DNA of 38,990 nucleotides. Source: Thermoplasmatota archaeon. GTDB taxonomy: Archaea; Thermoplasmatota; Thermoplasmata; Lutacidiplasmatales; JAMCUS01. The stretch spans positions 1 to 38,990 of the forward strand of contig JAMCUS010000020.1 in assembly GCA_023379385.1 (NCBI GenBank), read 5' to 3'. The notes beneath the pieces are model-generated. The model searched no databases. It worked only from the letters and a program-made list of their open reading frames with translations, and was not told the DNA's origin. Below, piece by piece: positions 7,804-38,506 of the stretch (its first letter is position 1; every line of letters starts with the position of its first letter). The translations under genes and the position numbers were made by a program.

Positions 7804-7811
7804 AGAATAAT

Positions 7812-9131
7812 CTAAATCCCCCTGAGATCAAGTTCAAGATCGGTTATGTTATTAAGAGCTCCTTCGTAGTCCAAAAACAGTGGTATAATGGTGTCATCTG
7901 CTTTATCAAGACGTACAAATTGAAGTTCCTTTTTTAAGAACGCGGTATCTTTTTCATTGTAACTGCCATTTAGCAATGCGTCAATAAAATCATGACTGTG
8001 CGTTGTAACAAAGATCTGGACCCCATCTTTTGCAAGTTCGATAAATAATTTTACAATCTCATTGATATATCCAGGATGCAAGTGATTCTCGGGTTCTTCA
8101 ATCGATATTATTTTGACACCATCTTGCGCATAAATGTAATATACAATTTCAGCTATTTTTTTAAATCCATCACCCATCAGTTCAAATGGAACTTCTACTG
8201 TCTCCGTATCTTTTTTCTGCACAATTTTATTAAAAGTAAATCGTTGAATACTTTCCATTATATTTCTATTTTTAATAAAATTTTCTGTATTCATTACTGC
8301 AATTTCATTAAAAGATTGATTACGAAGAATATTTATAAGTATATGGTCATCTATATAACTAAATTTCTTTTTAGTTGTTTTTTTGTCTTCTTCTTCATTT
8401 ATGGATTCAAACATAGTAGAATCAGGATTAAGGTTAGAGTCAAGCCAAATACTGTTAAGTATTGCTAATGGCAACACCATTAAAGTGCTTTTAAGTACTG
8501 TAGCATTATTTAATTTTTTATGCTTTTTTAACCAATCATTTACTAAAGAGTGGAATTCACTTAGAAATTTATTCCACTCCATATTAACCGATCTGTTTTT
8601 TATGATTGGTAAATAAGTAGTATACGGCCCCGACTTTTTGCTGGTTTCCATGATTTTAATGCTGTTATTGTATAAAAATTGTCTAAGGCTTTTATAATTT
8701 TCAATGTTATTAGCAAACAAAAGAGATAACTCGGTTATATCCTTATAATTCAGCTTTGTTAATTTAATTTTATTTGATCTTTCTAAAGAATTGGTTTCTT
8801 CTAAAAAATTGGTGATAATTTTCTTCAGGATGTTAATCAATTTAGTATGTACATCCATATCTGTTGCTTTTTTTATTGTTAATGATTTTTTTCTATGTTC
8901 TGAAAAAGTTAATTTTATAGACCCTTCAGATGATCGTTCACGAAGCAAATAACCTGGAAAATCCATATATTTTGATAAAACGTCGTGTAGGTTAAATGTA
9001 ATGTAAAGCGCCTCTTGTAATGTTGTTTTCCCGGTATTGTTTCTGCCTGTAATTACATTTAACATTTTGGGTTTAAAAGTAAAATTTTCAAAGATCTTAA
9101 AATTTTTAATATCTATTTCTGTTATGTGCAT
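7812..9131 (-). CDS. OLD-type AAA (AAA_15/AAA_21) ATPase
   Basis: The 439-residue protein starts with ITEIDIKNFKIFENF and has Walker A GRNNTGKTT (about 29-37), as in OLD/RecF-type ABC ATPases. An ABC-signature-like LMGDGFK lies near 318-324, Walker B IISIEEPENHLHP near 342-353, and the His switch TTHSH near 376-380. The middle (about 90-300) is a diverged helical insertion. ATG 9131 is preceded by an AGGTGGATGAT ribosome binding site and an AT-rich promoter region. It is the first gene of a two-gene operon with the TOPRIM protein. In OLD proteins both parts are one chain; here they are split. A defence role is likely but inferred. Confidence 0.8.
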   Translation of the reverse strand: MHITEIDIKNFKIFENFTFKPKMLNVITGRNNTGKTTLQEALYITFNLHDVLSKYMDFPGYLLRERSSEGSIKLTFSEHRKKSLTIKKATDMDVHTKLINILKKIITNFLEETNSLERSNKIKLTKLNYKDITELSLLFANNIENYKSLRQFLYNNSIKIMETSKKSGPYTTYLPIIKNRSVNMEWNKFLSEFHSLVNDWLKKHKKLNNATVLKSTLMVLPLAILNSIWLDSNLNPDSTMFESINEEEDKKTTKKKFSYIDDHILINILRNQSFNEIAVMNTENFIKNRNIMESIQRFTFNKIVQKKDTETVEVPFELMGDGFKKIAEIVYYIYAQDGVKIISIEEPENHLHPGYINEIVKLFIELAKDGVQIFVTTHSHDFIDALLNGSYNEKDTAFLKKELQFVRLDKADDTIIPLFLDYEGALNNITDLELDLRGI

Positions 9132-22651: not shown

Positions 22652-22767
22652 GCCGTCGTAGCTCAGTTGGTAGAGCGCTCGGCTGTTATTGTATATAAAT
22701 GCTTATATACCCCAGACACCGAATGGTCAGCGGTTCAAGAGTATTTCTGAAAATCCGCTCGACGGCG
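22652..22767 (+). tRNA. tRNA-Asn (GTT) with two introns
   Basis: The acceptor stem GCCGTCG/CGACGGC is perfect, with discriminator G and no encoded CCA. The D-arm is GCTC...GAGC. The anticodon loop is CTGTTA plus A38, giving GTT. A 29-base intron (22689-22717) at 37/38 contains its own perfect stem GTATATAA/TTATATAC. The T-stem AGCGG/CCGCT encloses 21 bases. Removing 14 (about 22739-22752) restores TTCAAAT. This T-loop insert has the same length and position as in tRNA-Asp. Pair 27-43 (C-A) is mismatched, which is the only flaw. Confidence 0.85.
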
Positions 22768-22774
22768 CATGAAA

Positions 22775-22849
22775 GGGCCCGTAGCTTAGTCCGGTTGGAG
22801 CGATTGGCTCATAACCAATTGGTCGTCGGTTCAAATCCGACTGGGCCCA
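22775..22849 (+). tRNA. tRNA with CAT anticodon (elongator Met or Ile2)
   Basis: Standard intronless tRNA: acceptor GGGCCCG/TGGGCCC (one G-T pair), anticodon arm ATTGG-CTCATAA-CCAAT, T-arm GTCGG-TTCAAAT-CCGAC, discriminator A, no CCA. The anticodon stem lacks the G-C pairs of an initiator tRNA. The sequence alone does not decide between elongator Met and Ile2, whose C34 is modified in archaea. It lies seven bases after tRNA-Asn and marks the left edge of the accessory island. Confidence 0.9.
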
Positions 22850-22922
22850 TTATAAATAAGGGGATATAGATAAGACCGAAAAAAGTTGTGATTTTCAATA
22901 ATACTATATTTATCAAAGAATA

Positions 22923-23150
22923 TTAATTACCTGAATCGGTCTTCAAATCTCCATACAACTTTAACAGAATTTTAACAACCTTAACCTTTAGATTTAGATG
23001 CTTTCCACTCTTTATCCTTGTTTTGATTTTGTAAAGGGATTGTTGTGATATTCCCATATCCCTGACATCCTTAGGCTTCAACGTTAAAATCCAGTCATAG
23101 AATTCCCTAACGTTATCATATTCAAGGTATGAATTGTTATCAATTCCCAA
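22923..23150 (-). CDS. Cas1-tail-like helix-turn-helix protein, third and diverged copy
   Basis: The frame gives 75 residues from a TTG (read as Met): GIDNNSYLEYDNVREF, then an HTH-like DVRDMGISQQSLYKIKTRIK and a basic end. Its first 16 residues match the two 94-aa copies further upstream, but the rest is a different sequence with the same layout. No ATG exists. The same frame stays open upstream to about 23265 without a normal start, so it may be a fragment rather than a gene. It is the last member of the Cas1/HEAT polycistron. Confidence 0.45.
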   Translation of the reverse strand: MGIDNNSYLEYDNVREFYDWILTLKPKDVRDMGISQQSLYKIKTRIKSGKHLNLKVKVVKILLKLYGDLKTDSGN

Positions 23151-23253
23151 TACTGATACTTCGTCAAGGTTGTTTGATTCCTTTCCTATGTATCTTATCC
23201 TATCTACGATAATATGTTTCCTCTGGGCTATGCTATCTATGTAGTCAAACTTG

Positions 23254-24105
23254 TTATCGTTGTGCTTTATGTAGTCTTGCTACATCATCTTTTGTTATTA
23301 TCCCTTTATCTATAAGCATTTCAACTGTATCCCATGCATACCTACGGATATCCTCATTATCAGAATTTAGAAGTTCTATAAATTTATTTTTTAAATCCTT
23401 TACATCATCTTTTGTTATTATCCCTTTATCTATAAGCGTATCAACTCTATACCATGCATACCTACGGATATCCTCATTATCAGAATTTAGAAGTTCTATA
23501 AATTTATTTTTTAAATCCTTTACATCATCTTTTGTTATTATCCCTTTATCTATAAGCTTTTCAACTGTATCCCATGCATGACTACGAACATATTCTTCAT
23601 TAGAATGTAGAAGGCCTATTAATTTATCTTTTACATCCTTTACATCATCTTTTGTTATTATTCCTTTATCTATAAGCTTTTCAACTGTATCCCATGCATG
23701 ACTACGAACATATTCTTCATTAGAATGTAGAAGGCCTATTAATTTATCTTTTAAATCCTTTACATCATCTTTTGTTATTATTCCTTTATCTATAAGCGTA
23801 TCAACTCTATCCCATGCATCACTACGGATATCCTCATTATCAGAACTTATACCAGAACTTATACCAGAACGCATACCAGAAGAACGCATACCATAAGAAC
23901 GCATACCAGAACGCCAAGATCTAACTGCAAGCTCACGTATACCATAATTATCGGAACTTAGAAGTTTTATGAACTTAGTAGAATCCTCTTTTGTTATTAT
24001 TCCTTTATCTATAAGCATTACAACCATATTCCATGTATCACTACGAACACTGTCATCATCAGAACTTAGCTTTTTTATTAATTCATCCTTATTCATTCTA
24101 TCCAT
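23254..24105 (-). CDS. HEAT-repeat solenoid protein C (about 6 repeats)
   Basis: The 283-residue protein consists of about six HEAT-like repeats with consensus FIELLxSDNExIRxxAW and LIDKGIITKDD, 40 residues per full unit. Repeat 2 holds a Ser/Gly/Met/Arg micro-repeat insert (SGMRS/SGIS units) nine residues longer than in solenoid B. The first ~95 residues are nearly identical to solenoid B. HEAT solenoids bind proteins or nucleic acids; the ligand is unknown. ATG 24105 follows GGGGAGG. The second Met (24096) would overlap the upstream stop as ATGA. The gene ends VARLHKAQR. Confidence 0.8.
   Translation of the reverse strand: MDRMNKDELIKKLSSDDDSVRSDTWNMVVMLIDKGIITKEDSTKFIKLLSSDNYGIRELAVRSWRSGMRSYGMRSSGMRSGISSGISSDNEDIRSDAWDRVDTLIDKGIITKDDVKDLKDKLIGLLHSNEEYVRSHAWDTVEKLIDKGIITKDDVKDVKDKLIGLLHSNEEYVRSHAWDTVEKLIDKGIITKDDVKDLKNKFIELLNSDNEDIRRYAWYRVDTLIDKGIITKDDVKDLKNKFIELLNSDNEDIRRYAWDTVEMLIDKGIITKDDVARLHKAQR
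23281..23820. repeat. Tandem 120-bp repeat array (solenoid gene C)
   Basis: About four and a half copies of the 120-base unit that encodes the 40-residue HEAT repeat are seen. Adjacent copies such as 23521-23640 and 23641-23760 differ at only two or three positions. Confidence 0.85.
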
Positions 24106-24477
24106 TCAATCCTCCCCTTTGTTTTATTATACATCTTTATTGTCTTACCCTCTTTAATCTTTTTCTTTTGATACCACAATGTAGACTTGTTTATCTTCAA
24201 GGCTTTCCTTTTTTCAGCATCAATGGACATAATCTTGTTCTTGATATCAATTGTATCATTCCTTGATATTTCTATATCAGGTATTTTGAATTCTAATGTT
24301 TTTACCTTACCTGAGATGTATCTGTTCAATTCCCTGATATTCTCATATTCAAGGTATGAATTGTTATCAATTCCCAATACGGATACTTCGTCAAGGTTGT
24401 TTGATTCCTTTCCTATATATCTTATCCTATCTACGATAATATGTTTCCTCTGGGCTATGCTATCTATGTAGTCAAAT
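23761..24477. repeat. Segmental duplication, copy 1 (partner 27124-27813)
   Basis: This block holds the 5' part of a solenoid gene, the whole 94-aa HTH ORF and its upstream region. It is almost base-identical to 27124-27813 at a constant offset of 3336 bases, apart from a 27-base length difference in the micro-repeat near 23850-23905. The identity ends abruptly at 24477/27813. Confidence 0.85.
24093..24377 (-). CDS. Cas1 C-terminal helix-turn-helix copy 2 (94 aa)
   Basis: The 94 residues match the last ~80 residues of the Cas1 protein at 30126-31136, including RYISGKxKTLEFKIPDIE and the HTH-like KINKSTLWYQKKKIKEGK. The frame starts with TTG and lacks an ATG. It is open about 40 codons further upstream without a usual start codon. 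It may be a stand-alone DNA-binding protein translated by coupling, or a duplicated gene fragment. Its end overlaps the start of solenoid C. It is virtually identical to copy 1 at 27429-27713. Confidence 0.5.
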   Translation of the reverse strand: MGIDNNSYLEYENIRELNRYISGKVKTLEFKIPDIEISRNDTIDIKNKIMSIDAEKRKALKINKSTLWYQKKKIKEGKTIKMYNKTKGRIEWIE

Positions 24478-27441
24478 TTGTGGTCGTTGTGCTTTATGTA
24501 GTCTTGCTACATCATCTTTTGTTATTATCCCTTTATCTGCAAGCGTATCAACTCTATCCCATGCATGACTACGGATATCCTCATTATCAGAACTTAGAAG
24601 TTCTATAAATTTATTTTTTAAATCCTTTACATCTTCTTTTGTTATTATCCCTTTATCTGCAAGCGTATCAACTCTATACCATGCATACATACGGATATCC
24701 TCATTATCAGAACTTAGAAGTTCTATAAATTTATTTTTTAAATCCTTTACATCTTCTTTTGTTATTATCCCTTTATCTATAAGCTTTTTAACTTTATCCC
24801 ATGCATACCTACGGATATCCTCATTATCAGAACTTAGAAGTTCTATAAATTTATCTTTTAAATCCTTTACAACCTCTTTTGTTATTATCCCTTTATCTAT
24901 AAGCGTATCAACTTCATCCAATGCATTCCCACGGGCATACTCATCATAAGAACTTAGAAGTTCTATAAATTTATCTTTTAAATCCTTTACAACCTCTTTT
25001 GTTATTATCCCTTTATCTATAAGCGTATCAACTCTATACCATGCATCCTCACGAATATACTCATTATCAAAACTTAGAAGTTCTATAAATTCATCTTTTA
25101 AATCCTTTACAACCTCTTTTGTTATTATCCCTTTATCTATAAGCGTATCAACTCTATTCCATGCATACCTACGGATATCTTCATTATCAGAACTTAGAAG
25201 TTCTATAAATTCATCTTTTAAATCCTTTACAACCTCTTTTGTTATTATCCCTTTATCTATAAGCGTATCAACTCTATTCCATGCCTTAATACGGATATAC
25301 TCATTATCAGAACTTAGAAGTTCTATAAATTCATCTTTTAAATCCTTTACAACCTCTTTTGTTATTATCCCTTTATCTATAAGCGTATCAACTTTATACC
25401 ATGCATCACTACGAATATCTTTATTATCAGAACGTAGAAGTTCTATGAATTTACCTTTTACATCCTTTAAATCATCTTTTGTTATTATCCCTTTATCTAT
25501 AAGCGTATCAACTTTATACCATGCCTTAATACGGATATACTCATTATCAGAACTTAGAAATTCTATAAATTCATCTTTTAAATCCTTTACAACCTCTTTT
25601 GTTATTATCCCTTTATCTATAAGCGTATCAACTTTATACCATGCATCCTCACGAATATCTTTATTATCAGAACGTAGAAGTTCTATGAATTTACCTTTTA
25701 CATCCTTTAAATCATCTTTTGTTATTATTCCTTTGTCTATAAGCGTATCAACTTTATACCATGCCTTAATACGGATATACTCATTATCAGAACTTAGAAA
25801 TTCTATGAATTTACCTTTTAAATCCTTTACAACCTCTTTTGTTATTATCCCTTTATCTATAAGCATATCAACTTTATACCATGCATCACTACGAATATCT
25901 TTATTATCAGAACTTAGACGTTCTATGAATTTACCTTTTACATCCTTTAAATCGTCTTTTGTTATTATCCCTTTATCTATAAGCATGTCAACTTTATACC
26001 ATGCATGACTCCAGTCATACTCATTATAAGAACGTAGAAGTTCTATGAATTTACCTTTTACATCCTTTAAATCATCTTTTGTTATTATCCCTTTATCTAT
26101 AAGCATTCCAACTTTATACCATGCATCCTCACGAATATCTTTATTATCAGAACGTAGAAGTTCTATGAATTTACCTTTTACATCCTTTAAATCATCTTTT
26201 GTTATTATTCCTTTGTCTATAAGCGTATCAACTTTATACCATGCATCACTACGAATATCTTCATAATCAGAACGTAGAAATTCTATTAATTTACCTTTTA
26301 CATCCTTTAAATCATCTTTTGTTATTATCCCATCATCTATAAGCATTCTAATATTATACCATGCATCCCTACGAATATCTTCATAATCAGAACGTAGAAA
26401 TTCTATTAATTTACCTTTTACATCCTTTAAATCATCTTTTGTTATTATCCCATCATCTATAAGCATTCTAATATTATACCATGCATCACTACGAATATCT
26501 TCATTATCAGAACTTAGAAGTTCTATTAATTTACCTTTTACATCCTTTAAATCCTCTTTTGTTATTATCCCTTTATCTATAAGCATGTCAACTTTATCCC
26601 ATGCATGACTACGAATATCTTTATTATCAGAACTTAGAAGTTCTATAAATTTATCTTTTAAATCCTTTACATCATCTTTTGTTATTATCCCATCATCTAT
26701 AAGCATTCCAACTCTGCCCCATGCATATTTACGAACATCATAATAATCAGAACGTAGAAATTCTATTAATTTACCTTTTACATCCTTTAAATCATCTTTT
26801 GTTATTATCCCATCATCTATAAGCATTCTAATATAATACCATGCAACCCTACGAATATCTTCATTATCAGAACTTAGAAGTTCTATTAATTTAGTAGAAT
26901 CATCTTTTGTTATTATCCCATCATCTATAAGCATTCCAACTCTGTCCCATGCATATTTACGAACATTATAATAATCAGAACGTAGAAATTCTATTAATTT
27001 AGTAGAATCCTCTTTTGTTATTATCCCTTTATCTATAAGCATGTCAACTTTATCCCATGCATGACTACGAATATCTTTATTATCAGAACTTAGAAGTTCT
27101 ATAAATTTATCTTTTAAATCCTTTACATCATCTTTTGTTATTATTCCTTTATCTATAAGCGTATCAACTCTATCCCATGCATCACTACGGATATCCTCAT
27201 TATCAGAACTTATACCAGAACGCATACCAGAAGAACGTATACCAGAACGCCAAGATCTAACTGCAAGCTCACGTATACCATAATTATCGGAACTTAGAAG
27301 TTTTATGAACTCAGTAGAATCCTCTTTTGTTATTATTCCTTTATCTATAAGCATTACAACCATATTCCATGTATCACTACGAACACTGTCATCATCAGAA
27401 CTTAGCTTTTTTATTAATTCATCCTTATTCATTCTATCCAT
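24472..27441 (-). CDS. HEAT-repeat solenoid protein B (about 24 repeats)
   Basis: The 989-residue protein consists of about 24 HEAT-like repeats, mostly exactly 40 residues, with two 36-residue units (STKLIE form) near the N-terminus. Invariant parts are IRxxAW, LIDKGIITK and the KDLKDKFIELL helix. Variation concentrates on the two residues after IR, the two after AW, and the pair before LID. Dimeric units (repeats 14-15 and 16-17) are duplicated, showing growth by unequal crossing-over. No signal peptide, membrane helix or catalytic motif is present. ATG 27441 follows GGGGAGG; Met 4 (27432) would give an ATGA overlap with the HTH ORF upstream. The ligand is unknown. Confidence 0.85.
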   Translation of the reverse strand: MDRMNKDELIKKLSSDDDSVRSDTWNMVVMLIDKGIITKEDSTEFIKLLSSDNYGIRELAVRSWRSGIRSSGMRSGISSDNEDIRSDAWDRVDTLIDKGIITKDDVKDLKDKFIELLSSDNKDIRSHAWDKVDMLIDKGIITKEDSTKLIEFLRSDYYNVRKYAWDRVGMLIDDGIITKDDSTKLIELLSSDNEDIRRVAWYYIRMLIDDGIITKDDLKDVKGKLIEFLRSDYYDVRKYAWGRVGMLIDDGIITKDDVKDLKDKFIELLSSDNKDIRSHAWDKVDMLIDKGIITKEDLKDVKGKLIELLSSDNEDIRSDAWYNIRMLIDDGIITKDDLKDVKGKLIEFLRSDYEDIRRDAWYNIRMLIDDGIITKDDLKDVKGKLIEFLRSDYEDIRSDAWYKVDTLIDKGIITKDDLKDVKGKFIELLRSDNKDIREDAWYKVGMLIDKGIITKDDLKDVKGKFIELLRSYNEYDWSHAWYKVDMLIDKGIITKDDLKDVKGKFIERLSSDNKDIRSDAWYKVDMLIDKGIITKEVVKDLKGKFIEFLSSDNEYIRIKAWYKVDTLIDKGIITKDDLKDVKGKFIELLRSDNKDIREDAWYKVDTLIDKGIITKEVVKDLKDEFIEFLSSDNEYIRIKAWYKVDTLIDKGIITKDDLKDVKGKFIELLRSDNKDIRSDAWYKVDTLIDKGIITKEVVKDLKDEFIELLSSDNEYIRIKAWNRVDTLIDKGIITKEVVKDLKDEFIELLSSDNEDIRRYAWNRVDTLIDKGIITKEVVKDLKDEFIELLSFDNEYIREDAWYRVDTLIDKGIITKEVVKDLKDKFIELLSSYDEYARGNALDEVDTLIDKGIITKEVVKDLKDKFIELLSSDNEDIRRYAWDKVKKLIDKGIITKEDVKDLKNKFIELLSSDNEDIRMYAWYRVDTLADKGIITKEDVKDLKNKFIELLSSDNEDIRSHAWDRVDTLADKGIITKDDVARLHKAQRPQI
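24500..27170. repeat. Tandem 120-bp repeat array (solenoid gene B)
   Basis: The period is exactly 120 bases from about 24541 to 26880, so phrases such as TTTTGTTATTATCCC recur at fixed spacing more than 20 times. Two units are shortened to 108 bases near 26881-27000. Neighbouring units are often more than 90% alike. Confidence 0.9.
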
Positions 27442-27813
27442 TCAATCCTCCCCTTTGTTTTATTATACATCTTTATTGTCTTACCCTCTTTAATCTTTTT
27501 CTTTTGATACCACAATGTAGACTTGTTTATCTTCAAGGCTTTCCTTTTTTCAGCATCAATGGACATAATCTTGTTCTTGATATCAATTGTATCATTCCTT
27601 GATATTTCTATATCAGGTATTTTGAATTCTAATGTTTTTACCTTACCTGAGATGTATCTGTTCAATTCCCTGATATTCTCATATTCAAGGTATGAATTGT
27701 TATCAATTCCCAATACGGATACTTCGTCAAGGTTGTTTGATTCCTTTCCTATATATCTTATCCTATCTACGATAATATGTTTCCTCTGGGCTATGCCATC
27801 TATGTAGTCAAAT
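27124..27813. repeat. Segmental duplication, copy 2 (partner 23761-24477)
   Basis: This is the second copy of the HTH ORF plus solenoid 5' end. Between 27429 and 27813 only one or two mismatches to 24093-24477 are visible, pointing to recent duplication or gene conversion. Confidence 0.85.
27429..27713 (-). CDS. Cas1 C-terminal helix-turn-helix copy 1 (94 aa)
   Basis: Same product as the copy at 24093-24377: residues from about 15 on match the Cas1 C-terminus, with the HTH KINKSTLWYQKKK. The frame begins with TTG 27713 and no ribosome binding site is seen. The reading frame stays open upstream to near 27840, coding DYIKHNDNKFDYIDGIAQRK and more, but without a start codon. This may be the inner part of a lost larger gene. 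The 3' end is tied to solenoid B in the same way that Cas1 is tied to solenoid A. Confidence 0.5.
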   Translation of the reverse strand: MGIDNNSYLEYENIRELNRYISGKVKTLEFKIPDIEISRNDTIDIKNKIMSIDAEKRKALKINKSTLWYQKKKIKEGKTIKMYNKTKGRIEWIE

Positions 27814-27822
27814 TTGTTATCA

Positions 27823-30129
27823 TTATGTTTTATGTAGTCTTGCTATATCATCTTTTGTTATTATACCTTTATCTATAAGCTTTTCAACTGTATCCCATGC
27901 ATGACTACGAATATACTCATTATCAGAACGTAGAAGATCTATTAATTTATCTTTTAAATCCTTTACATCATCTTTTGTTATTATACCTTTATCTATAAGC
28001 TTTTCAACTGTATCCCATGCATGACTACGAATATACTCATTATCAGAACGTAGAAGGTCTATAAAATCATCTTTTGTTATTATACCTTTATCTATAAGCG
28101 TATCAACTATATCCCGTGCATTCCTACGAATATACCCATTATCAGAACGTAGAAGGTCTATAAAATCATCTTTTGTTATTATCCCTTTATCTATAAGCTT
28201 TTCAACTGTATCCCATGCATGACTACGAATATACCAATTATCAGAACGTAGAAATTCTATAAATTTATCTTTTAAATCCTTTACATCATCTTTTGTTATT
28301 ATACCTTTATCTATAAGCTTTTCAACTGTATCCCATGCATGACTACGAACATCTTCATTATCAGGATGTAGAAGGTCTATAAAATCATCTTTTAAATCCT
28401 TTACATCATCTTTTGTTATTATACCTTTATCTGCAAGCATTCTAACTGTATCCCATGCATTCCTACGAATACGCTCATCATCAGAACGTAGAAGGTCTAT
28501 AAATTTATCTTTCACATCCTTTACATCTTCTTTTGTTATTATCCCATCATCTATAAGCGTTCCAACTCTGTCCCATGCATGACTACGAATATACTCATTA
28601 TCAAAACGTAGAAGGTCTATAAAATCATCTTTTGTTATTATCCCTTTATCTGCAAGCATTTCAACATTACTCCATGCATTCCTACGAATAAGCTCATCAT
28701 CAGAACGTAGAAGGTCTATAAATTTATCTTTTAAATCCTTTACATCATCTTTTGTTATTATACCTTTATCTATAAGCTTTTCAACTGTATCCCATGCATT
28801 CCTACGAATAAGCTCATCATCAGAACGTAGAAGGTCTATAAATTTATCTTTTAAATCCTTTACATCATCTTTTGTTATTATACCTTTATCTATAAGCGTA
28901 TCAACACTATCCCATGCCGAATAATGAGAACGTAGAAGGTCTATAAATTTATCTTTCACATCCTTTACATCTTCTTTTGTTATTATCCCTTTATCTGCAA
29001 GCATTACAACTCTATCCCATGCATCCCAACGAACATATTCATTATCAGAACGTAGAAGGTCTATAAAATCATCTTTTAAATCCTTTACATCATCTTTTGT
29101 TATTATCCCTTTATCTATAAGCATTACAACTGTATCCCATGCATGACTACGAATACGCTCATCATCAGAACGTAGAAGGTTTATAAATAAACGTAGAAAT
29201 TCTATAAATTTATCTTTCACATCCTTTACATCTTCTTTTGTTATTATCCCTTTATCTATAAGCTTTTCAACTGTATCCCATGCATTCCTACGAACATATT
29301 CATTATCAGAACGTAGAAGGTCTATAAATTTATCTTTTAAATCCTTTACAACATCTTTTGTTATTATCCCTTTATCTATAAGCGTATCAACACTATCCCA
29401 TGCCGAATAATGAGAACGTAGAAGGTCTATAAATTTATCTTTCACATCCTTTACATCTTCTTTTGTTATTATCCCTTTATCTATAAGCTTTTCAACTGTA
29501 TCCCATGCATACCTACGAACAACTTCATCATCAGAACGTAGAAGGTCTATAAATTTATCTTTTAAATCCTTTACATCATCTTTTGTTATTATCCCATCAT
29601 CTATAAGCGTTCCAACTCTGTCCCATGCATGACTACGAATATACTCATTATCAAAACGTAGAAGGTCTATAAAATCATCTTTTGTTATTATACCTTTATC
29701 TATAAGCTTTTCAACTGTATCCCATGATGCATTCCTACGAATAAGCTCATCATCAGAACGTAGAAGGTCTATAAAATCATCTTTTGTTATTATTCCTTTG
29801 TCTATAAGCGTATCAACTGTATACCATGCATAACTACGAATATACCAATTATCAGAACGTAGAAGGTCTATAAATTTATCTTTTAAATCCTTTACAACAT
29901 CTTTTGTTATTATCCCTTTATCTATAAGCGTATCAACTGTATCCCATGCATTAATACGAATACGCTCATTATCAGAACGTAGAAATTCTATAAATTTATC
30001 TTTTAAATCCTTTACATCATCTTTTGTTATTATCCCTTTATCTGCAAGCATTTCAACATTACTCCATGCATTCCTACGAATGTACTCATTATCAGAACGT
30101 AGATCCCTTATTAATTCATTAATATTCAT
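27823..30129 (-). CDS. HEAT-repeat solenoid protein A (about 20 repeats)
   Basis: The 768-residue protein has about 20 HEAT-like repeats of the form FIDLLRSDNEYIRSHAWDTV plus LIDKGIITKDD. Full units have 40 residues. Several (such as 4, 5, 14, 18 and 19) lack the VKDLKDK helix turn and have 33, and two lose part of the first helix (RSHYSAWD). Its subtype (IDLLRSD) differs from B and C (IELLSSD), so it expanded separately. ATG 30129 overlaps the Cas1 stop as ATGA, so it is translationally coupled to cas1. The gene ends IARLHKT. No enzymatic motif is present; a binding scaffold is inferred. Confidence 0.85.
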   Translation of the reverse strand: MNINELIRDLRSDNEYIRRNAWSNVEMLADKGIITKDDVKDLKDKFIEFLRSDNERIRINAWDTVDTLIDKGIITKDVVKDLKDKFIDLLRSDNWYIRSYAWYTVDTLIDKGIITKDDFIDLLRSDDELIRRNASWDTVEKLIDKGIITKDDFIDLLRFDNEYIRSHAWDRVGTLIDDGIITKDDVKDLKDKFIDLLRSDDEVVRRYAWDTVEKLIDKGIITKEDVKDVKDKFIDLLRSHYSAWDSVDTLIDKGIITKDVVKDLKDKFIDLLRSDNEYVRRNAWDTVEKLIDKGIITKEDVKDVKDKFIEFLRLFINLLRSDDERIRSHAWDTVVMLIDKGIITKDDVKDLKDDFIDLLRSDNEYVRWDAWDRVVMLADKGIITKEDVKDVKDKFIDLLRSHYSAWDSVDTLIDKGIITKDDVKDLKDKFIDLLRSDDELIRRNAWDTVEKLIDKGIITKDDVKDLKDKFIDLLRSDDELIRRNAWSNVEMLADKGIITKDDFIDLLRFDNEYIRSHAWDRVGTLIDDGIITKEDVKDVKDKFIDLLRSDDERIRRNAWDTVRMLADKGIITKDDVKDLKDDFIDLLHPDNEDVRSHAWDTVEKLIDKGIITKDDVKDLKDKFIEFLRSDNWYIRSHAWDTVEKLIDKGIITKDDFIDLLRSDNGYIRRNARDIVDTLIDKGIITKDDFIDLLRSDNEYIRSHAWDTVEKLIDKGIITKDDVKDLKDKLIDLLRSDNEYIRSHAWDTVEKLIDKGIITKDDIARLHKT
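27840..30110. repeat. Tandem 120/99-bp repeat array (solenoid gene A)
   Basis: Repeats follow the 120-base unit with several 99-base units in which a 21-base segment is missing in frame. Repeats with the same variant, such as those at 28561-28640 and 29595-29670, recur about 1 kb apart, indicating block duplication. Confidence 0.85.
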
Positions 30130-31136
30130 TCAATCCTCACCTTTGTTTTATTATACATCTTAATGGTCTTACCCTCTTTAATCTTTTTCTTTTGATACCA
30201 CAATGTAGATTTGTTTATCTTCAAGGCTTTCCGTTTCTCAGGATCAATTGACATTATTTTATTCCTCATATCTATAGTATCATTCCTTGAGATTTCAATA
30301 TCAGGTATCTTGAATTCCAGTGTTTTTGCCTTTCCTGAAATGTATCTGCTTAATTCCCTTACATTTTCAAACATTATGTTCTCAAGTGTATGCTGTTTAT
30401 TTCTGAATTCATATCGCTTGTTGAAATTATTCTTGATTTTATCAATCAATAGTTTTGCTATATTTGGTCTCAAACGGATATGGTAATTCTCAGTTGTTAT
30501 AAAATCTGATTTCTTTAGTTTAGTTTCCAGTAGTTCAATTACTGAATAATCAATAACATACCTGAATAATTCCTGTAAATCATAAACAAGAGAATGCTTG
30601 GATGGTGCTATTTCATGCAGGTATCCGATAGAGGCATCAAGACCTACTGTGTTGATATTTTTCCTTACCATTGATTCAAGTATTGCATATCCGTAATTCA
30701 GTAATGCGTTTACAGGATCGGATGCATTCATATTCCATGAGTATGATAGGTTTTTCCTTGACTGAAAATTGAAATCAGGTGCTAACTGATTGAATATCTT
30801 GGATAACTCTGTCCAGTAAGCAGATGCAATGCGTCCTTCATACATCATCAGGCTGTTTATGTTTTTATAATCAACTCTTTGCATTTCCCTGTTTATTGTG
30901 GTTAAATCTATGTCATAGAATTTTAATAATCCGTTAATCAAGCTTAATGAGGATTTCACTTTTTGCCTGACAATCTGACCAGCAATGTATAGCCTTGATT
31001 CAGGATTAAGATATTTCTCATACTGTTTTATTTTCAGGTCAGCATTAAGCGTTTCCTGAGGCTGTGTTACAGATAATAAATTCCCATTCCAGTTAAGCAA
31101 AGAAATAGATACATCATGTTTTGAAAGCCATCTCAT
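30126..31136 (-). CDS. cas1: Cas1 integrase with C-terminal HTH (CRISPR-less context)
   Basis: Cas1 inserts DNA segments by an integrase reaction. The Cas1 signature residues are present: Glu in MMYEGRIASAYW (about residue 100), His in IGYLHEIAPSKHSL and Asp in VYDLQELFR. The NALLNYGYAILESMV helix is also typical. The last ~80 residues form a basic domain with the HTH KINKSTLWYQKKK. The first ATG in this frame is 31136, but the N-terminal beta-domain continues upstream in frame without a start codon (see 31137-31350). No Cas2, effector or repeat-spacer array is in the window. The gene is coupled to solenoid A by an ATGA overlap. It could be a solo or casposase-like Cas1. Confidence 0.88.
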   Translation of the reverse strand: MRWLSKHDVSISLLNWNGNLLSVTQPQETLNADLKIKQYEKYLNPESRLYIAGQIVRQKVKSSLSLINGLLKFYDIDLTTINREMQRVDYKNINSLMMYEGRIASAYWTELSKIFNQLAPDFNFQSRKNLSYSWNMNASDPVNALLNYGYAILESMVRKNINTVGLDASIGYLHEIAPSKHSLVYDLQELFRYVIDYSVIELLETKLKKSDFITTENYHIRLRPNIAKLLIDKIKNNFNKRYEFRNKQHTLENIMFENVRELSRYISGKAKTLEFKIPDIEISRNDTIDMRNKIMSIDPEKRKALKINKSTLWYQKKKIKEGKTIKMYNKTKVRIE

Positions 31137-31350
31137 AGCTTCAAAACTGACAGAACCGTAATATCCATCTATAATTATTAAATCGTAAGGTATTTGATGA
31201 GGATAAAATTCGTATTTAACTGGGTTATTTAACTCATTTAACCTGTTTAACCCAGTATTACTTTGTTTTAAATTTAATTTTGATTTATTATCAATAATTA
31301 ACTTACGTTTATCAACGTATATTGATATACCATAACCTTTTATTATTCAT
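31137..31350 (-). pseudogene. N-terminal domain of Cas1, out of frame with its ATG
   Basis: Upstream of ATG 31136 the same frame is open for about 67 codons and reads GYGISIYVDKRKLIIDN ... IIIDGYYGSVSFEA, a clear Cas1 N-terminal domain. It contains no ATG, GTG or TTG and is closed by a TGA at 31349-31347. An ATG at 31350 reads MNNK in the neighbouring frame. Dropping one A from the AAAA run (31338-31341) would join it to the Cas1 frame as MNNKGYGIS. So the gene is frameshifted, uses recoding or slippage, or starts internally. A TATA-like ATTATA lies close upstream. Confidence 0.7.
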
Positions 31351-31438: not shown

Positions 31439-33493
31439 ATGACTTTACTCAGAGACTTAAAGATTAATAAATCGTATACATCTAAAGAAAATGATATAGT
31501 AAAGGAATTCTTAAATCCTACCTTATCCATTTCTTCATTGTATTACAGAGTTTCTGCATATTACTCTTCATATTCTCTTCAGGGGATCGCGGAAGGGCTC
31601 TCAGCCATGATAACGAATAATGCAAAAATAAAAATGATAATTTCATTTTTCATTAATGAACAAGATTACAATGCCTTTATAGATGGAAAAGAAAAGACCC
31701 AAGTCTACATTGAAGAAAATTTTATAAATGATAAAGAAGAATTAAAGAGACTTATGATTGAAGATTCAGTACGGGCTTTTTCATTCTTGGTTGCAACCGA
31801 TAGGCTTCAGATTAAGTTTGTAATGTCTGCACAGGGAATATTCCATGAAAAATATGGTATAATTTTTGATTCTAATAATGATTTTGTTGGTTTTTCTGGT
31901 TCTATGAATGAAACTCTTAACGGTCTTACGATAAATTTTGAAAAAATAAAAGTTTTTAAGAGCTGGAAAGAAGAAGAAAGAGAGTATATAAATCCGGATT
32001 TACTGGAATTCGAGAGATACTGGGGAGGAAACGTAGATGGTTGTATAATTCAAGATATGCCCGATAAAAATAGAAATGTTATTTTAGAGTCATTTAAAGA
32101 ATTTGAAATAGAAATGAATGCCTTGAAATATTCTAAGAAGGAGAAGCCTCCATGGCCCCATCAATTAGAAGCTCTACAAAAATGGAAAGGGAATAACTAC
32201 AAAGGAATACTCGAAATGGCTACTGGTACCGGAAAAACGAGAGCGGCAATTATGTGTATCAATGACTTTAAAAAATTACATGGCAAAAGCTTGATTCTGA
32301 TCGCAGTTCCAACGGATGTTCTTATTTCACAGTGGGAGAAAGAACTGAGGAAAAAAGAAAACGGTATAAATCCCTATATAAAAAAAATATCTGGAGATTC
32401 TGCTGTAAGTATTGATGATCTCTATCAGACCGTGAGTTCTAGAGAAATCTCCATCAATGATGGTTTAATTATACTAGGCACTTACAAAATGCTCTCATCA
32501 ATGAAGTTTTCAGATTTAATTCCGTCATCGTTTGATGGAGAGATATTACTAGTGGCTGATGAAGTCCATCATATAGCGGCTGAAAATTATTCTAAAGTCA
32601 TGGATGATAGATATCATTATCGTCTTGGGCTTAGTGCAACACCTGAACGGTATTTTGATGAAGGGGGGAGTCAGGACATTTTAGAATACTTTGAAAGGGT
32701 AGTGTACACATTTGATCTTAAGGAGGCTATTTCCAATAATATTCTTACTCCTTACGATTATTATCTACACTTTACGTATTTAAATGATAAAGAAGCGTAT
32801 GAATATGGAAAGTTAACTAAAAAATTATTCAACAGGTTAAATTACAGAAACAAAGATGATGTTGACGAGAACAAAAATGTTTTTAAAAATTTAGAAAACA
32901 TCATCGAAATAAAGAGAGCTAGAATATTAAAAAAAGCTTCAGGTAAAAAGGAGATATTGAAGTCAATTTTGAATGATATGAAAAGAAAAAACCAGCTTAA
33001 GCATCTCTTAATATATTTTGAGGACAATGAACAGATAGCCGACTATCAAGATGTTTTTAATGAATTATCCATATTCAGTGTTAAAGTGGATTCTGGAAAA
33101 AGCGAGCAGGATAGAGATGCCATAATCGATAAATTTTCAAAGGGAGATATCGACTGTTTACTTGCAATGAAAATATTGGATGAAGGTGTTGACGTACCAT
33201 CTGTTGAAAGGGCTATACTAGTAATATCTCTCCAAAACCCCGCTCAGTTCATACAAAGACGAGGAAGACTTCTAAGACGATTCGCAGGGAAAACAAAAGC
33301 GGAAATACACGATATATTGATAAGCGTAAAAGATCAATATGGTCTTGGACTAAGCGGCGTGGAAAAATCTATACTTTATAAGGAACTCAGAAGAGCCAAG
33401 TTATTCTGCGAAACTGCAAAAAATTCTAGGGAATGTATGAATGTCATATCAAACATATCTTTAAAATATAACTTAGGAGTTATCTCATCATAG
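31439..33493 (+). CDS. PLD-nuclease/SF2-helicase fusion protein
   Basis: The 684-residue protein has an N-terminal phospholipase D-like nuclease domain with one HKD motif (H136, K138, D144, then GFSGSMNET at 151-159). A superfamily 2 helicase follows: Walker A ATGTGKT (261-267), DEVHH (374-378), SAT (399-401) and motif VI QRRGRLLRRF near 603-612. PLD plus SF2 fusions are common in anti-phage and restriction systems, where the helicase moves on DNA and the PLD part cuts. It is the first of four tightly spaced genes. A named defence family cannot be fixed without profile searches. Confidence 0.85.
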   Translation: MTLLRDLKINKSYTSKENDIVKEFLNPTLSISSLYYRVSAYYSSYSLQGIAEGLSAMITNNAKIKMIISFFINEQDYNAFIDGKEKTQVYIEENFINDKEELKRLMIEDSVRAFSFLVATDRLQIKFVMSAQGIFHEKYGIIFDSNNDFVGFSGSMNETLNGLTINFEKIKVFKSWKEEEREYINPDLLEFERYWGGNVDGCIIQDMPDKNRNVILESFKEFEIEMNALKYSKKEKPPWPHQLEALQKWKGNNYKGILEMATGTGKTRAAIMCINDFKKLHGKSLILIAVPTDVLISQWEKELRKKENGINPYIKKISGDSAVSIDDLYQTVSSREISINDGLIILGTYKMLSSMKFSDLIPSSFDGEILLVADEVHHIAAENYSKVMDDRYHYRLGLSATPERYFDEGGSQDILEYFERVVYTFDLKEAISNNILTPYDYYLHFTYLNDKEAYEYGKLTKKLFNRLNYRNKDDVDENKNVFKNLENIIEIKRARILKKASGKKEILKSILNDMKRKNQLKHLLIYFEDNEQIADYQDVFNELSIFSVKVDSGKSEQDRDAIIDKFSKGDIDCLLAMKILDEGVDVPSVERAILVISLQNPAQFIQRRGRLLRRFAGKTKAEIHDILISVKDQYGLGLSGVEKSILYKELRRAKLFCETAKNSRECMNVISNISLKYNLGVISS

Positions 33494-33501
33494 GTGTAAC
33501 C

Positions 33502-33702
33502 ATGCCGGAAGGGAGTAATATATTTGAAAGCTCAATAAGAAAGGCTGTAGAAAAAGCCTTAGGGAAAGAGAATGAAGAATCTGTTAGACAATGTGTAAAT
33601 CAGGTTTCTGACTTACTTATGATCTCTATCAGAAAAATGCCAACAAAAGATAAATTGAAAGAAATAATTACCAAAAAAATTGAAACGGATGAGTTCATAT
33701 GA
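33502..33702 (+). CDS. 66-aa helical protein of the defence-like operon
   Basis: A short, charged, helix-forming protein (MPEGSNIFESSIRKAVEKAL ... KIETDEFI) with no recognised domain. It starts 8 bases after the helicase gene. Its TGA overlaps the next ATG as ATGA, so it is translated with the ATPase. It may be an adaptor between helicase and ATPase (inference). Confidence 0.65.
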   Translation: MPEGSNIFESSIRKAVEKALGKENEESVRQCVNQVSDLLMISIRKMPTKDKLKEIITKKIETDEFI

Positions 33703-35744
33703 TTATAAAAAAAATTATTCTGAAAAACTACCGTTGTTATAAAGATCAGGTTATAGAAGCAACTAAATTAAATCTAGATACGACGGATAACCCTGGAATT
33801 ACATTATTTACTGGAGATAATTCTGTCGGAAAAACAACAATATTCAATGCATTGGGGTGGGTACTATACGGGAAGGAGACTCAAGCGATTCTGAGAAGAG
33901 ACCCATCCACCCTGCCTATACCCTCCACTTCTTCATTTGACAAAGATGATTCATCTGAAGTAAAGGTTGAATTACATATGAGGGATACTGGAAGTGTTAA
34001 AGAAATAATACTTGCGAGAACGGCAATTTTCAAAAAAGGCATGATGGAGCCTATCGATTCTGAGGTAACTTTGTTTCTGACATATAGTGACAATACAGAC
34101 AATTATTTGTCAAGTAGAACTGATAGAGATGCTGTAGACAGATTTTTAAGGCAACTGTTTCCTAGCGATATAGCCCCATTCCATCTATTTGATGGGGAAT
34201 TTCTTGAATCTACCTATACCAATAGAGGGGAGAATATTGTAAAAGGAATAAGAGATATGTTTCGAATATTCAGAATCGAAGAACTTAGAGAGGCAGCTAA
34301 AGAAATAGAGGAATCCTATGGAAGAAGTAGATCAAAATATACCAATAACACTAAAATTAAAACTTGTATTGAAGACCAGACTCGTTACGAACATAACAGA
34401 GATGAAATATCCGAGAGATTAGAGAATCTGAAAACTGAAATTAAGAGCCTTGAGAAAGTGAATTCCGATCTTACTGAAGGAATTGAAAAACTCGGCAACG
34501 TAGAAGCTATAAAAGAAAAGTCAGAAAGACTTAAACAAATCGAGGAAGATATCAAAGCTATAGAAAATAGTGTAAAAGATGCTACAAAAAAAAAAATACA
34601 ACTAATATTGAAAAATGCTTATCTATTGAACTCTGAAGATGTTTTTGAGGAAGTATCTAAGATTGTGGGTAAACTGACTGAAAGGGGAAAACTACCGCCA
34701 GAGATTAAAGATACATTTGTAAAAGATCTTCTGGAGCGAAAGGCATGTATATGTGGTACTCCATTAATGGTGGGCAGTAAATCCCGGAATACACTAGAAA
34801 ATCTACTGAAAGAAATTGCTGGCTCTTCTGACATGGAAGTACTTCAAGATATGTACTATTTAGGAAAAACTTCTATTGCGGATATTAAAACTATTAGGAA
34901 TCAGGTTGAAGCTGAAAATAAAAATTATGTTTCATACACTAATCAAAAGGAACCCAAGGAGATGGAACGAAGCAAATTAACAGAAGAGTTGCTAGGGGAG
35001 TCTTCCTATGAAAAGATTGTGTCAACGTATCTCGAACTAAAACAAATGAGAACCAGTAATGAAACTGAAATTCGTAATAAAATCTTAACACAAGGAAACT
35101 TAGAAAAAAATCTACAAGATGAAATAGATAAGATATCAAAAATAGAGAAAGATATAGAAAGGTTTCAGGAAAAAGATAAGGAATTTCAGCTTTACGAGTC
35201 ATACTATCAAAGAGTTAAGAAACTGCATTCCATTTTTTCCGATCTCGTAGGGAATATTATTTCTGAAGTCGCTGAGCGGTATGGGAAAAAGGTCAATGAA
35301 ATGATAAAAATGATCCCTTTGTTATCTCGGTTTACTGTAAAAATATCTGTTTCTGCGACCGATGATGGAAAAATGGATTTTGAGTTCTTGCAGGATGGAA
35401 ATCGCAAGTTTTATATGGCTGGAGGGCAGAACCAGCTCATGGGCATCTTATTAATAGCGGCTTTTACGAAAGTAATGAGAGAAAGCTGGCCTAAAGATAT
35501 TTCAGCACCATTTGTGGTAATAGATAATCCTGTTTCGACGTTAAGTCAAGAAAACATAGTACTTTTTGGTAAAATTCTCAATGATCTATTTGGTGGAGTC
35601 CATCTGATACTGTTCATAAAGAATACTGATTATGATAAGATACTTGAAGGTGCTGGAGAAAATATTTCTAGGTTTTATAAGTTATCGAAAGGCCAGAACG
35701 ATGATACGACTATAGTTGGAGAGGTGAAAGTTAATGAAAGTTAG
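33699..35744 (+). CDS. Rad50/DndD-like coiled-coil ABC ATPase
   Basis: The 681-residue protein starts MIIKKIILKNYRCYKDQ and has Walker A GDNSVGKTT (39-47). Two coiled-coil regions (about 215-300 and 400-510) flank a short CIC-G hook-like turn (KACICGTPL). The ABC signature is AGGQNQL (about 574-580) and Walker B VVIDNP (606-611). The DNP end of Walker B in place of DE resembles DndD and related AAA_23 proteins. These act as DNA-engaging clamps in modification or defence. No dndC or dndE is nearby, so it is not named DndD. It overlaps both neighbours (4 and 11 bases). Confidence 0.8.
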   Translation: MIIKKIILKNYRCYKDQVIEATKLNLDTTDNPGITLFTGDNSVGKTTIFNALGWVLYGKETQAILRRDPSTLPIPSTSSFDKDDSSEVKVELHMRDTGSVKEIILARTAIFKKGMMEPIDSEVTLFLTYSDNTDNYLSSRTDRDAVDRFLRQLFPSDIAPFHLFDGEFLESTYTNRGENIVKGIRDMFRIFRIEELREAAKEIEESYGRSRSKYTNNTKIKTCIEDQTRYEHNRDEISERLENLKTEIKSLEKVNSDLTEGIEKLGNVEAIKEKSERLKQIEEDIKAIENSVKDATKKKIQLILKNAYLLNSEDVFEEVSKIVGKLTERGKLPPEIKDTFVKDLLERKACICGTPLMVGSKSRNTLENLLKEIAGSSDMEVLQDMYYLGKTSIADIKTIRNQVEAENKNYVSYTNQKEPKEMERSKLTEELLGESSYEKIVSTYLELKQMRTSNETEIRNKILTQGNLEKNLQDEIDKISKIEKDIERFQEKDKEFQLYESYYQRVKKLHSIFSDLVGNIISEVAERYGKKVNEMIKMIPLLSRFTVKISVSATDDGKMDFEFLQDGNRKFYMAGGQNQLMGILLIAAFTKVMRESWPKDISAPFVVIDNPVSTLSQENIVLFGKILNDLFGGVHLILFIKNTDYDKILEGAGENISRFYKLSKGQNDDTTIVGEVKVNES

Positions 35745-36470: not shown

Positions 36471-38253
36471 TGTAGGGGTATCCATTTTTAATTAAAATAT
36501 TATGTATTATGTTGCTACACTACCACGGTACATATCTATCCAGTCTCAGCCTTGAAAATATATTCGCATTCGCACTCTCTTTCTCCATCTCTTCTACTAC
36601 CATCTCTGCTTTATTACCTTCTTCTTTCACTACCGCTATCTTTATTCTATCCAGTATCTCTGCTAACCTCTCTACACTTATGTTCTTTTCTCCTATCTCT
36701 GATGCTATGTACCTGTATAGCAGCAAACCCATCATGCACAGAAATACATGCGCTCTTATCGTTAGGTCTTTCCATACATAAAACGGTTTCATCGGTATCA
36801 ACAGTTTATTGTTTAACCATTTAAAATCTTCTTCTATCTTCTCTTTCCTGTTATATATATTTGCTATCTCGCCCGTTTCCAATTCCTGATTGTCTGTAAA
36901 TATCGCCTGCTTCCCAAATGATTTATACAGTTCCTCTTCTCTCTTTTTTATTACTTCACACTTCACCTTCACTTTTTTGTCTTCCGTTACCACCCCATAT
37001 TCATATATTCCTCTGTATTGCTGCGGTATTACATCCGTTAGTTTATTTATTGCCCCTTTCTCTCCCAACTTTCTTCCTTTGCCTTCCCTATTGCCTTTCT
37101 CTTTCAGTTCCTTTACCACTACCTCTATTTTGCTCCTGTACTTCTCGTAGGTCTCCCTCTGCCTCTTCTCTGTCTTTTCATTATATCTCACTACCACTGT
37201 ACATTCATTCCCATACAGATTCTCTCCATCATATCTTTTTACTTTGCAGGCACTTTTTGATCCTTTCCCCTTTATTTTCTCATACTTATCCAGACTCTCT
37301 TCAAAATATTTTTTTGCCTGCTCCCAGTTCAATGATCCTACCAAATGCATTCTCTTCATTACCTCTTTTACATTCTCCTCTGAGTTTACTCCTCTATCAA
37401 ACACCATTGTTATCTCTTTTGCATCCACTTTCAAACTCTCTATTCTTTTGCTTATTGTCTCAAACATCTCCACGAATAACTCCGATTCATGCCGGTTCCC
37501 TTCATACGCCTCACTCATGAATGGTATGTTGTCGTCGTTCACTACCAGCCCTACCCCTACTATGTTTTTATCGTATCTTTTATGCTTCGAATTCCCTTTC
37601 CTTGGTAATTTCTCTCCTTTTACTATGTTCGTGTAGAAATTCGACGTGTCAAATATCAATTTACTCGGTGAGTACCCCTGTTCATACAACCTCTTTGCTA
37701 TCTCTTCTTCTATTCTCTTTATTTTTTCATCTGTTAACCTCTTCATGTAGTTCAGACAGTTCTGCGCAGAGAGTTTGTTTCTCTCTGTCCATATAAAACT
37801 CATTCCACTATGCTGATACCAATCTTCCATTTTATTTCTGCTATACGCACCTTCTGATCTACCCATTATCATTAGCAGAAGGTATTGCCCTACTGTCAAT
37901 CCCTTCTGATTCCTCCTTTTTATTATTTTGTCAATACTTTCTATGAATTCAAGCTTTTCCGATGCGTGTAACAGTGCTGCTATTCTCCCGAATTGGAAGG
38001 ATGTTACTTTGTGATTGTCTGCACCATTTGTCAGTTCATAGATCGTATCTGCATTGCCTATGTATTTTTCGATTACCCTCTTCATTTTGCCGTTGATACG
38101 TTGGTTCTTTACAATATACAGGTATTTTTTATTCTTGATAGTTTTGATTTTAAAATGCATAAAGCATCACTATCCCCTAAAGTATTATATCTATATTAAG
38201 TTATCTAAATAATGGGTAGTAATTAAATTAAATAAAAGTAGTTAGCCCCTACA
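36471..38253. mobile_element. IS1634-like insertion sequence
   Basis: The transposase gene is bracketed by TGTAGGGG (36471-36478) and CCCCTACA (38246-38253), followed inward on both sides by AT-rich, weakly matching sequence. This gives about 1.78 kb, normal for the family. No matching target duplication is visible next to these ends, so the borders are provisional. A longer inverted repeat lies just outside (36429-36447 and 38299-38317). Confidence 0.65.
36520..38160 (-). CDS. IS1634 family (IS4-like) DDE transposase
   Basis: The 546-residue protein begins MHFKIKTIKNKKYLYIVKNQ, typical of IS1634 transposases. The catalytic triad is visible: D171 in LIFDTSNFYTN, D255 in MVFDRGVNS and the Glu in YNRKEKIEEDFKWL (about 436-449), which is the YREK-like motif of the IS4 clan. 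A helical C-terminus (HVFLCMMGLLLYRYI) follows. The gene is uninterrupted and full length, so the element could be active. Its insertion separates the defence-like operon from the AT-rich debris to the right. Confidence 0.92.
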   Translation of the reverse strand: MHFKIKTIKNKKYLYIVKNQRINGKMKRVIEKYIGNADTIYELTNGADNHKVTSFQFGRIAALLHASEKLEFIESIDKIIKRRNQKGLTVGQYLLLMIMGRSEGAYSRNKMEDWYQHSGMSFIWTERNKLSAQNCLNYMKRLTDEKIKRIEEEIAKRLYEQGYSPSKLIFDTSNFYTNIVKGEKLPRKGNSKHKRYDKNIVGVGLVVNDDNIPFMSEAYEGNRHESELFVEMFETISKRIESLKVDAKEITMVFDRGVNSEENVKEVMKRMHLVGSLNWEQAKKYFEESLDKYEKIKGKGSKSACKVKRYDGENLYGNECTVVVRYNEKTEKRQRETYEKYRSKIEVVVKELKEKGNREGKGRKLGEKGAINKLTDVIPQQYRGIYEYGVVTEDKKVKVKCEVIKKREEELYKSFGKQAIFTDNQELETGEIANIYNRKEKIEEDFKWLNNKLLIPMKPFYVWKDLTIRAHVFLCMMGLLLYRYIASEIGEKNISVERLAEILDRIKIAVVKEEGNKAEMVVEEMEKESANANIFSRLRLDRYVPW

Positions 38254-38317: not shown

Positions 38318-38368
38318 TTACTACCTGTTGAATAAAGATAATTAAAATTCTTAAATTGAAATATAAAA

Positions 38369-38506
38369 ATGGCACGTTTTTTTACCTTCAATGTATGGAA
38401 TAAAAGTTATAAAGAAAATATTGAAAATTTTTATACAAATAGAATTCATTGGTTTGATAAAATAAAAGGCAATTATAAAGATTATATGGAGAATGTATAT
38501 GATTAG
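38369..38506 (+). CDS. 45-aa AT-rich hypothetical ORF
   Basis: ATG 38369 opens 45 codons: MARFFTFNVWNKSYKENIEN and onward, rich in aromatic residues, Asn and Lys. Its stop overlaps the next ATG by eight bases. Three such small ORFs follow each other, so this may be one decayed gene read in shifting frames. No family is recognised. Confidence 0.25.
   Translation: MARFFTFNVWNKSYKENIENFYTNRIHWFDKIKGNYKDYMENVYD

Follow-up and report, generated by a model that had tools for sequence, protein, structure and literature searches.

The stand-alone cas1 gene described here and the repeat-protein genes behind it are almost certainly what is left of family 2 casposons, and not a new Cas1 system. They lie in a stretch of 38,990 nt (the window; contig JAMCUS010000020.1 of assembly GCA_023379385.1, forward strand) from a Thermoplasmatota archaeon placed by GTDB in Archaea; Thermoplasmata; Lutacidiplasmatales; JAMCUS01, whose genome assembly is 94% complete with a GC content of 35%. 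We file the locus as a remnant because a complete polB is absent from the window. The explanation as a whole, a casposon wreck with polB/cas1 fusion scars and a diversifying solenoid cargo, appears very likely to us.

Seven genes or gene fragments follow one another on the minus strand in the order that a first, sequence-only reading of the window had given: cas1, solenoid A, an HTH unit, solenoid B, a second HTH unit, solenoid C and an HTH fragment. A tRNA-Met gene on the opposite strand adjoins this last fragment. As also noted in that reading, the letters ATGA (30126–30129) are common to the end of cas1 and the start of solenoid A. For the pairs of HTH unit and next solenoid, for which it had considered such joins probable, the overlap is 13 nt, and ATGA applies only if the second Met is the start. 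Elsewhere in the window, positions 7159–9131 encode an AAA/OLD-like ATPase and a small partner with a weak match to candidate defence models (AriA, PDC-M38), and positions 9362–12322 a protein of 986 aa that combines DUF835 with a STAND-like ATPase domain.

The Cas1 gene and the casposon ends

Judged by its sequence, the Cas1 of the window (30126–31346, minus strand) is a family 2 casposase with a C-terminal HTH and stands nearer to casposases than to the Cas1 of CRISPR systems. Its best match in the PDB is the Methanosarcina mazei casposase 6opm (E 6e-79), a match that extends through the HTH tail, compared to E 1e-20 for the best CRISPR Cas1. It is 90% identical to the casposase of an intact sister element in the same genome. 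Both copies are sister branches in the tree, followed by the Cas1 of Thermogymnomonas acidicola as the next branch; the tree places the window Cas1 with polB-linked casposases, and it is a small tree in which the split between casposases and CRISPR Cas1 is not cleanly one-sided. All Cas1 matches in the host genome are casposon genes.

No CRISPR-type short spaced repeats were found in the flanks of the locus, and no other cas genes (including cas2 and effector) among the neighbour genes scanned. This is in agreement with the sequence-only reading, which had described a Cas1 lacking array, cas2 and effector. Its proposal of a role other than spacer acquisition holds as well, in that the gene is a casposase gene and not a CRISPR adaptation gene. 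A casposon had been named there as an alternative and was set aside as no polB was seen in the window, yet C-terminal polB fragments occur there three times. Together with these fragments the window contains a casposon end and the remnant of a right end, and an intact sister element lies elsewhere in the genome; we therefore read the lone Cas1 as a casposon gene.

The Pfam and NCBIfam matches to the protein begin at about model position 50, since the codons for its N-terminus precede the first in-frame start (31136). Compared to the intact copy, an 8-nt deletion puts the ATG at 31348–31350 out of frame, and the cas1 of the window may have lost its original start to this frameshift; a sequencing error or a non-standard start are the alternatives. 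A partial duplicate of the 5' end of cas1 was observed just upstream of the intact cas1 (L016:693-981).

Of 250 genomes sampled from the class, 51 encode relatives of this Cas1 (E up to 1e-10), and CRISPR-like Cas1 proteins are among these relatives. In Thermoplasmata, Micrarchaeota, Nitrosopumilaceae and Methanosarcina, the close relatives belong to casposons that also carry polB, HNH and HTH genes. The first reading had held that a Cas1 located in ordinary CRISPR loci, with the solenoids elsewhere, would speak against a dedicated system; the relatives' Cas1 does occur without this solenoid, but in ordinary casposons. Scans of IMG/VR with the solenoid and with Cas1 gave no relatives.

The tRNA-Met (CAT; 22775–22849, plus strand, called by ARAGORN) offers its 3' end as the casposon target. 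This end carries TCAAATC, 8 bp and CC, as does the tRNA-Val at the sister element; mapping of the A. boonei casposase identified these as the sites that it recognises (PMC6614799). A putative left copy of the target-site duplication, CCCATTATAAATAA (22846–22859, plus strand), has the position of the verified CCCATCGTTTATAA of the sister element. It is followed by the complete left terminal inverted repeat (22860–23275, plus strand), which begins with GGGGATATAGATAAG and contains the 3' end of polB. The terminal motif has seven copies in the host genome compared to none for the reversed control, and the copies on C19 (34602) and C38 adjoin further tRNA genes. Next to tRNA-Met we noticed by eye a tRNA-Asn-like gene (GTT; 22652–22771), uncalled by ARAGORN, with an apparent intron in the anticodon loop and a T loop that seems about 13 nt too long (GCGGTTCA-AGAGTATTTCTGA-AAATCCGC). 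Positions 1–99 of another contig, C39 (L017), equal positions 22776–22874 of the window, i.e. the same tRNA-Met and casposon end, and continue into a different solenoid; either the tRNA-Met locus is duplicated or the assembly contains variation between strains.

The right end of the element is decayed and located about 15 kb from the left end. It consists of a 56-nt remnant of the inverted repeat (38328–38382, plus strand; outer 18 bp lost), recognised by 82% similarity to the intact element's repeat over 56 columns (53.6 bits; maximum of 100 shuffles, 32.8 bits). A second, right copy of CCCATTATAAATAA was searched for in the window and not found. The extent of the element is for these two reasons probable only, and with it the position inside the element of two plus-strand genes, a PbeA-like PLD/helicase restriction protein (31439–33493; PADLOC PbeA, E 1e-188) and a PbeC/DndD-like ATPase (33699–35744; PADLOC PbeC, E 1e-52), both probable casposon cargo. 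An IS1634-family transposase gene (36520–38160, minus strand; NCBIfam NF033559, E 7e-68) is inserted between the cargo and the right end. A phosphorothioation-based restriction system (Pbe/Dnd) was considered for the locus and rejected: it requires PbeB/D and the Dnd modification set, PADLOC reports PbeA- and PbeC-like genes only, and DndC has no match in the host genome at its 94% completeness. Within the element polB is represented by the three C-terminal fragments only, and neither the HNH endonuclease nor the two HTH genes of family 2 casposons are present.

The intact sister casposon was reconstructed from two contigs (C17 and C28) that overlap by 127 nt. It reads tRNA-Val, CCCATCGTTTATAA, an inverted repeat beginning with GGGGATATAGACAAGACG, the polB end, a solenoid gene (488 aa) and cas1, followed by genes for a 349-aa HTH-like protein, a 170-aa protein, an HTH protein, HNH and PolB, and then by the inverted repeat and CCCATCGTTTATAA again. 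The inverted repeats are 413 bp long, 97.6% identical and include the 3' end of polB; the target-site duplication at tRNA-Val is a perfect 14 bp, and a perfect 14-bp duplication is found also in the related element L049. Two HTH-like genes stand beside HNH, with HTH calls that are weak. The single solenoid gene lies beside a complete cas1, and there is no fusion unit. A PDB search (phmmer) with the sister polymerase gave no match, and the assignment of the 887-aa protein on C28 as PolB therefore rests on its family B polymerase motifs (YLDFTSMYPS and YMDTDS) and on its relatives: the homologues in elements L096 and L104 pass Pfam DNA_pol_B and show full-length homology to it.

Origin of the HTH units

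The two HTH units are fusions of a polB end with a cas1 tail. If a whole unit (132 aa, read upstream of TTG) is searched against the genome, its C-terminal part matches Cas1 tails and its N-terminal part the end of PolB. In the first scar (24093–24500, minus strand) the polB C-terminus covers 24328–24500 and the cas1 tail 24093–24347; in the second (27429–27836, minus strand) these parts lie at 27664–27836 and 27429–27683. Pairwise alignments map the join, precise within a few bases, to a stretch common to polB and cas1 (TGARAATRTNAGGGAATT); the shared stretch measures 18 nt and contains AGGGAATT. The units have no ATG start. Overall they are nearly identical, with 247 nt at 100% identity and with identical cas1 part and join. 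The final codons of solenoid B are polB DNA in another frame.

The fragment nearest the tRNA (22923–23273, minus strand) was taken for a diverged copy of the Cas1 tail in the sequence-only reading. By homology it is instead the C-terminus of PolB, with 76% identity over PolB residues 776–882 of the intact copy (E 4e-44); it keeps PolB's own end and is located inside the inverted repeat.

Silent sites tell the two halves of the scars apart. The cas1 tail of the scars differs from that of the window cas1 at pS 0.44, compared to pS 0.30 between the cas1 genes of window and sister, and we therefore assign it to another cas1 lineage; the polB halves differ from the terminal polB copy of the window at pS 0.08. 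Clean copies of the window's own Cas1 tail are rejected on these distances together with the polB match, and with them the earlier idea that the Cas1 HTH was duplicated as a module accompanying each solenoid. In the cas1-derived half the frame is kept and differences from cas1 are mostly silent (pN/pS 0.07), as would be expected from an earlier life in a working cas1; this is not proof of a present function.

Two related structures were seen on other contigs of the genome. On C21 (L018/L122, about 6661–7275) a collapsed copy consists of a Cas1 tail, about 30 aa of a solenoid start and a PolB C-terminus, and C39 encodes a 117-aa polB-derived HTH protein whose ATG start overlaps the stop of a solenoid.

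The scars probably originated from tandem stacking of casposons and subsequent recombination. The Cas1 casposase would cut and join the inverted repeats at the tRNA end, for which it would need neither Cas2 nor CRISPR, and at least two family 2 casposons would have inserted at one target, the tRNA-Met 3' end, and have become stacked there in tandem. Tandem integration of casposons at one target has been demonstrated in vivo in M. mazei (PMC10359463). In the intact sister element the terminal inverted repeat includes the polB 3' end, and the far end, beyond cas1 and the solenoid gene, accordingly also has a copy of the PolB C-terminus. Among stacked casposons, such a terminal polB copy could recombine with, or be deleted against, the cas1 tail of the next casposon at the common AGGGAATT, and the product would be units of solenoid, polB end/cas1 tail and solenoid. 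One fusion unit would later have been duplicated with part of its solenoid; the spacing of this duplication is 3336 nt. In the subsequent decay polB, HNH and other core genes would have been lost, the IS would have entered and the start of cas1 would have disappeared.

An internal duplication in one casposon, perhaps an old one after which the tail diverged, by unequal crossing-over between polB end and cas1 tail and with no stacking, would yield the same gene order from a single crossover, and the 18-nt common stretch with AGGGAATT could seed it. We consider it unlikely, as the scar tail stands at pS 0.44 from the window cas1 tail, yet the polB halves at only 0.08 from the terminal copy.

The solenoids as cargo

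The three proteins between the scars and ends, solenoid A (768 aa; 27823–30129), B (989 aa; 24472–27441) and C (283 aa; 23254–24105), all encoded on the minus strand, are by profile match and structure prediction HEAT-type alpha-solenoids made of tandem two-helix repeats of about 40 aa. Their units are mostly 40 aa (120 nt) long, with 45 register copies of the 120-nt unit, far above chance. They match Pfam HEAT_2, and the AlphaFold model has two helices per 40 aa with pLDDT of about 85–92 over most of the C-terminal two thirds. The top Foldseek matches of the model are Armadillo/HEAT folds (E about 1e-6, TM-scores 0.35–0.5). Matches to ORC1_wHTH, SLH, Parvo_NS1 and a c-di-GMP motif in Pfam/NCBIfam were dismissed; they are mostly sums of weak single-unit matches with no significant stretch.

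Within the repeats a fixed core (D1, G3, I4, T6, K14, I18, L21, A32) is found in all 52 full-length units. The nine most variable positions of these units (25, 26, 27, 30, 31, 34, 35, 37 and 38) lie outside this core and fall in helix A and the turn before it. Over all unit pairs pN/pS is 1.48 (resampling range 1.29–1.72), compared to 0.16 for cas1 between window and sister. A minimum spanning tree of the units counts 303.5 amino-acid versus 56.5 silent changes, which deviates from a neutral ratio of 3.0 with P 9.5e-06 and of 3.64 with P 0.0026; the test is simple counting (NG86 and spanning tree) rather than a tree-based codon model, and the range of neutral ratios, 3.0–3.6, depends on an assumed AT-biased mutation model. 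The sequence comparison thus favours diversification of the repeats at the amino-acid level. That the solenoid is a diversifying binder, with the exposed helix A positions forming a protein-binding surface, has in our estimate slightly less than an even chance.

Nearest-neighbour units usually belong to the same array, and growth of the solenoids is therefore consistent with replication slippage or unequal exchange of 120-nt units. The suggestion that Cas1 expands or exchanges repeat units loses its ground here, given this local kinship of units and the single solenoid that the sister element has beside its complete cas1. Neutral junk repeats, expanded by slippage and free of function, would fit such local expansion and the array lengths, which range from 283 to 1131 aa among copies; against this stand five solenoid frames with a total of about 3,660 codons that are stop-free in a genome of 35% GC, the core residues fixed in every full-length unit and the concentration of amino-acid change outside the core, and we regard it as quite improbable.

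The solenoid gene is placed directly downstream of cas1, in a slot that holds other genes in relatives: an Mrr endonuclease together with a type IIG-like enzyme in L049, again a type IIG-like enzyme in L050, in L092 a TylF-type methyltransferase with a polB end and tRNA-Pro behind it and, by inspection, an oxidoreductase-like protein in L094. In several relatives these genes overlap the cas1 stop or start directly after it. The varied occupants point to a cargo slot, and the solenoid is therefore taken as the cargo of the host genome studied here.

The window solenoids share their element, within its probable extent, with the PbeA- and PbeC-like genes. On C39 a 1131-aa solenoid persists where cas1 is reduced to a tail, and GajA and GajB (Gabija; L017:6577-10448) lie on the same contig as this solenoid and casposon remnant. 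We tentatively suggest, as a possible though somewhat unlikely role, that the solenoid may be an evolvable defence or counter-defence binder supplied to the host, and kept after loss of the casposase as on C39.

In the class, 13 other genomes gave solenoid matches, which are HEAT proteins of greater distance (26–37% identity); the one inspected is a host gene. The genomes of Thermogymnomonas acidicola and Marsarchaeota in which related casposons occur gave no solenoid match. The host HEAT proteins L131:6708-9302, from this genome, and L068:1489-2220, whose gene adjoins a primase-like gene, are 31–37% identical to the solenoids and have the same repeat grammar. Host HEAT proteins of Thermoplasmata are a possible source of the cargo solenoid.

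The system originally proposed for the window, in which a Cas1-derived HTH tail partners each solenoid and Cas1 acts on the repeats, could draw on an HTH-solenoid order that recurs three times with overlapping frames, on the in-frame, mostly silent divergence of the scars' cas1 half (pN/pS 0.07) and on the ATG-started HTH of C39, but it is highly improbable: the units are half PolB and those of the window lack an ATG, a low pN/pS is expected if the tail diverged inside a working cas1 before fusion, the near identity of the scars makes selection since their duplication not measurable, the relatives' Cas1 comes without solenoids, and the intact element, with its one solenoid, lacks a fusion unit.

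Relation to known casposons and implications

With the family 2 casposons of A. boonei and M. mazei the window element shares the C-terminal HTH of Cas1, the tRNA 3' end as target and a variable cargo that includes restriction genes; through its sister it also shares a similar HTH at the C-terminus of PolB, the HNH and HTH genes, inverted repeats and the 14-bp duplication. Krupovic et al. 2014 (PMC4046053) had reported that Cas1 and PolB of this family end in similar HTH domains. Unlike the casposons of A. boonei and M. mazei, the window copy is without polB and HNH, its right end is not intact, it has polB/cas1 scars and it carries three HEAT solenoids of closely similar units, and the inverted repeat of this lineage contains the 3' coding end of polB. 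What makes this element a variant are its fusion scars, the polB end carried in the inverted repeat and its diversifying solenoid cargo.

A precedent for HEAT-type repeats in a casposon is the core HTH protein reported for family 2 casposons, which has a C-terminal HEAT domain (PMC4046053). The solenoids differ from it in that they have no recognised HTH of their own, comprise up to about 29 similar units and occupy the cargo slot. The host HEAT proteins of Thermoplasmata follow the same 40-aa grammar (xAW...GII/LT), but are diverged and without tandem near-identical units. To designed Armadillo repeat proteins and natural HEAT/Arm proteins in the PDB the predicted alpha-solenoid is alike at low TM-scores, a general fold similarity only.

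A puzzling stand-alone Cas1 is hereby explained as a casposase, and a polB end hidden in an inverted repeat can pass for new HTH genes. One complete element and several decayed ends, some of them at other tRNAs, indicate that casposons have apparently been active in a Thermoplasmata archaeon, both in the past and recently. The slot behind cas1, which holds restriction enzymes in some elements and solenoids here, gives a testable lead to a binding or defence protein. If the proposed role is true, a slot otherwise used for restriction enzymes would house a protein that varies its array length and its surface residues through unit exchange and positive selection.
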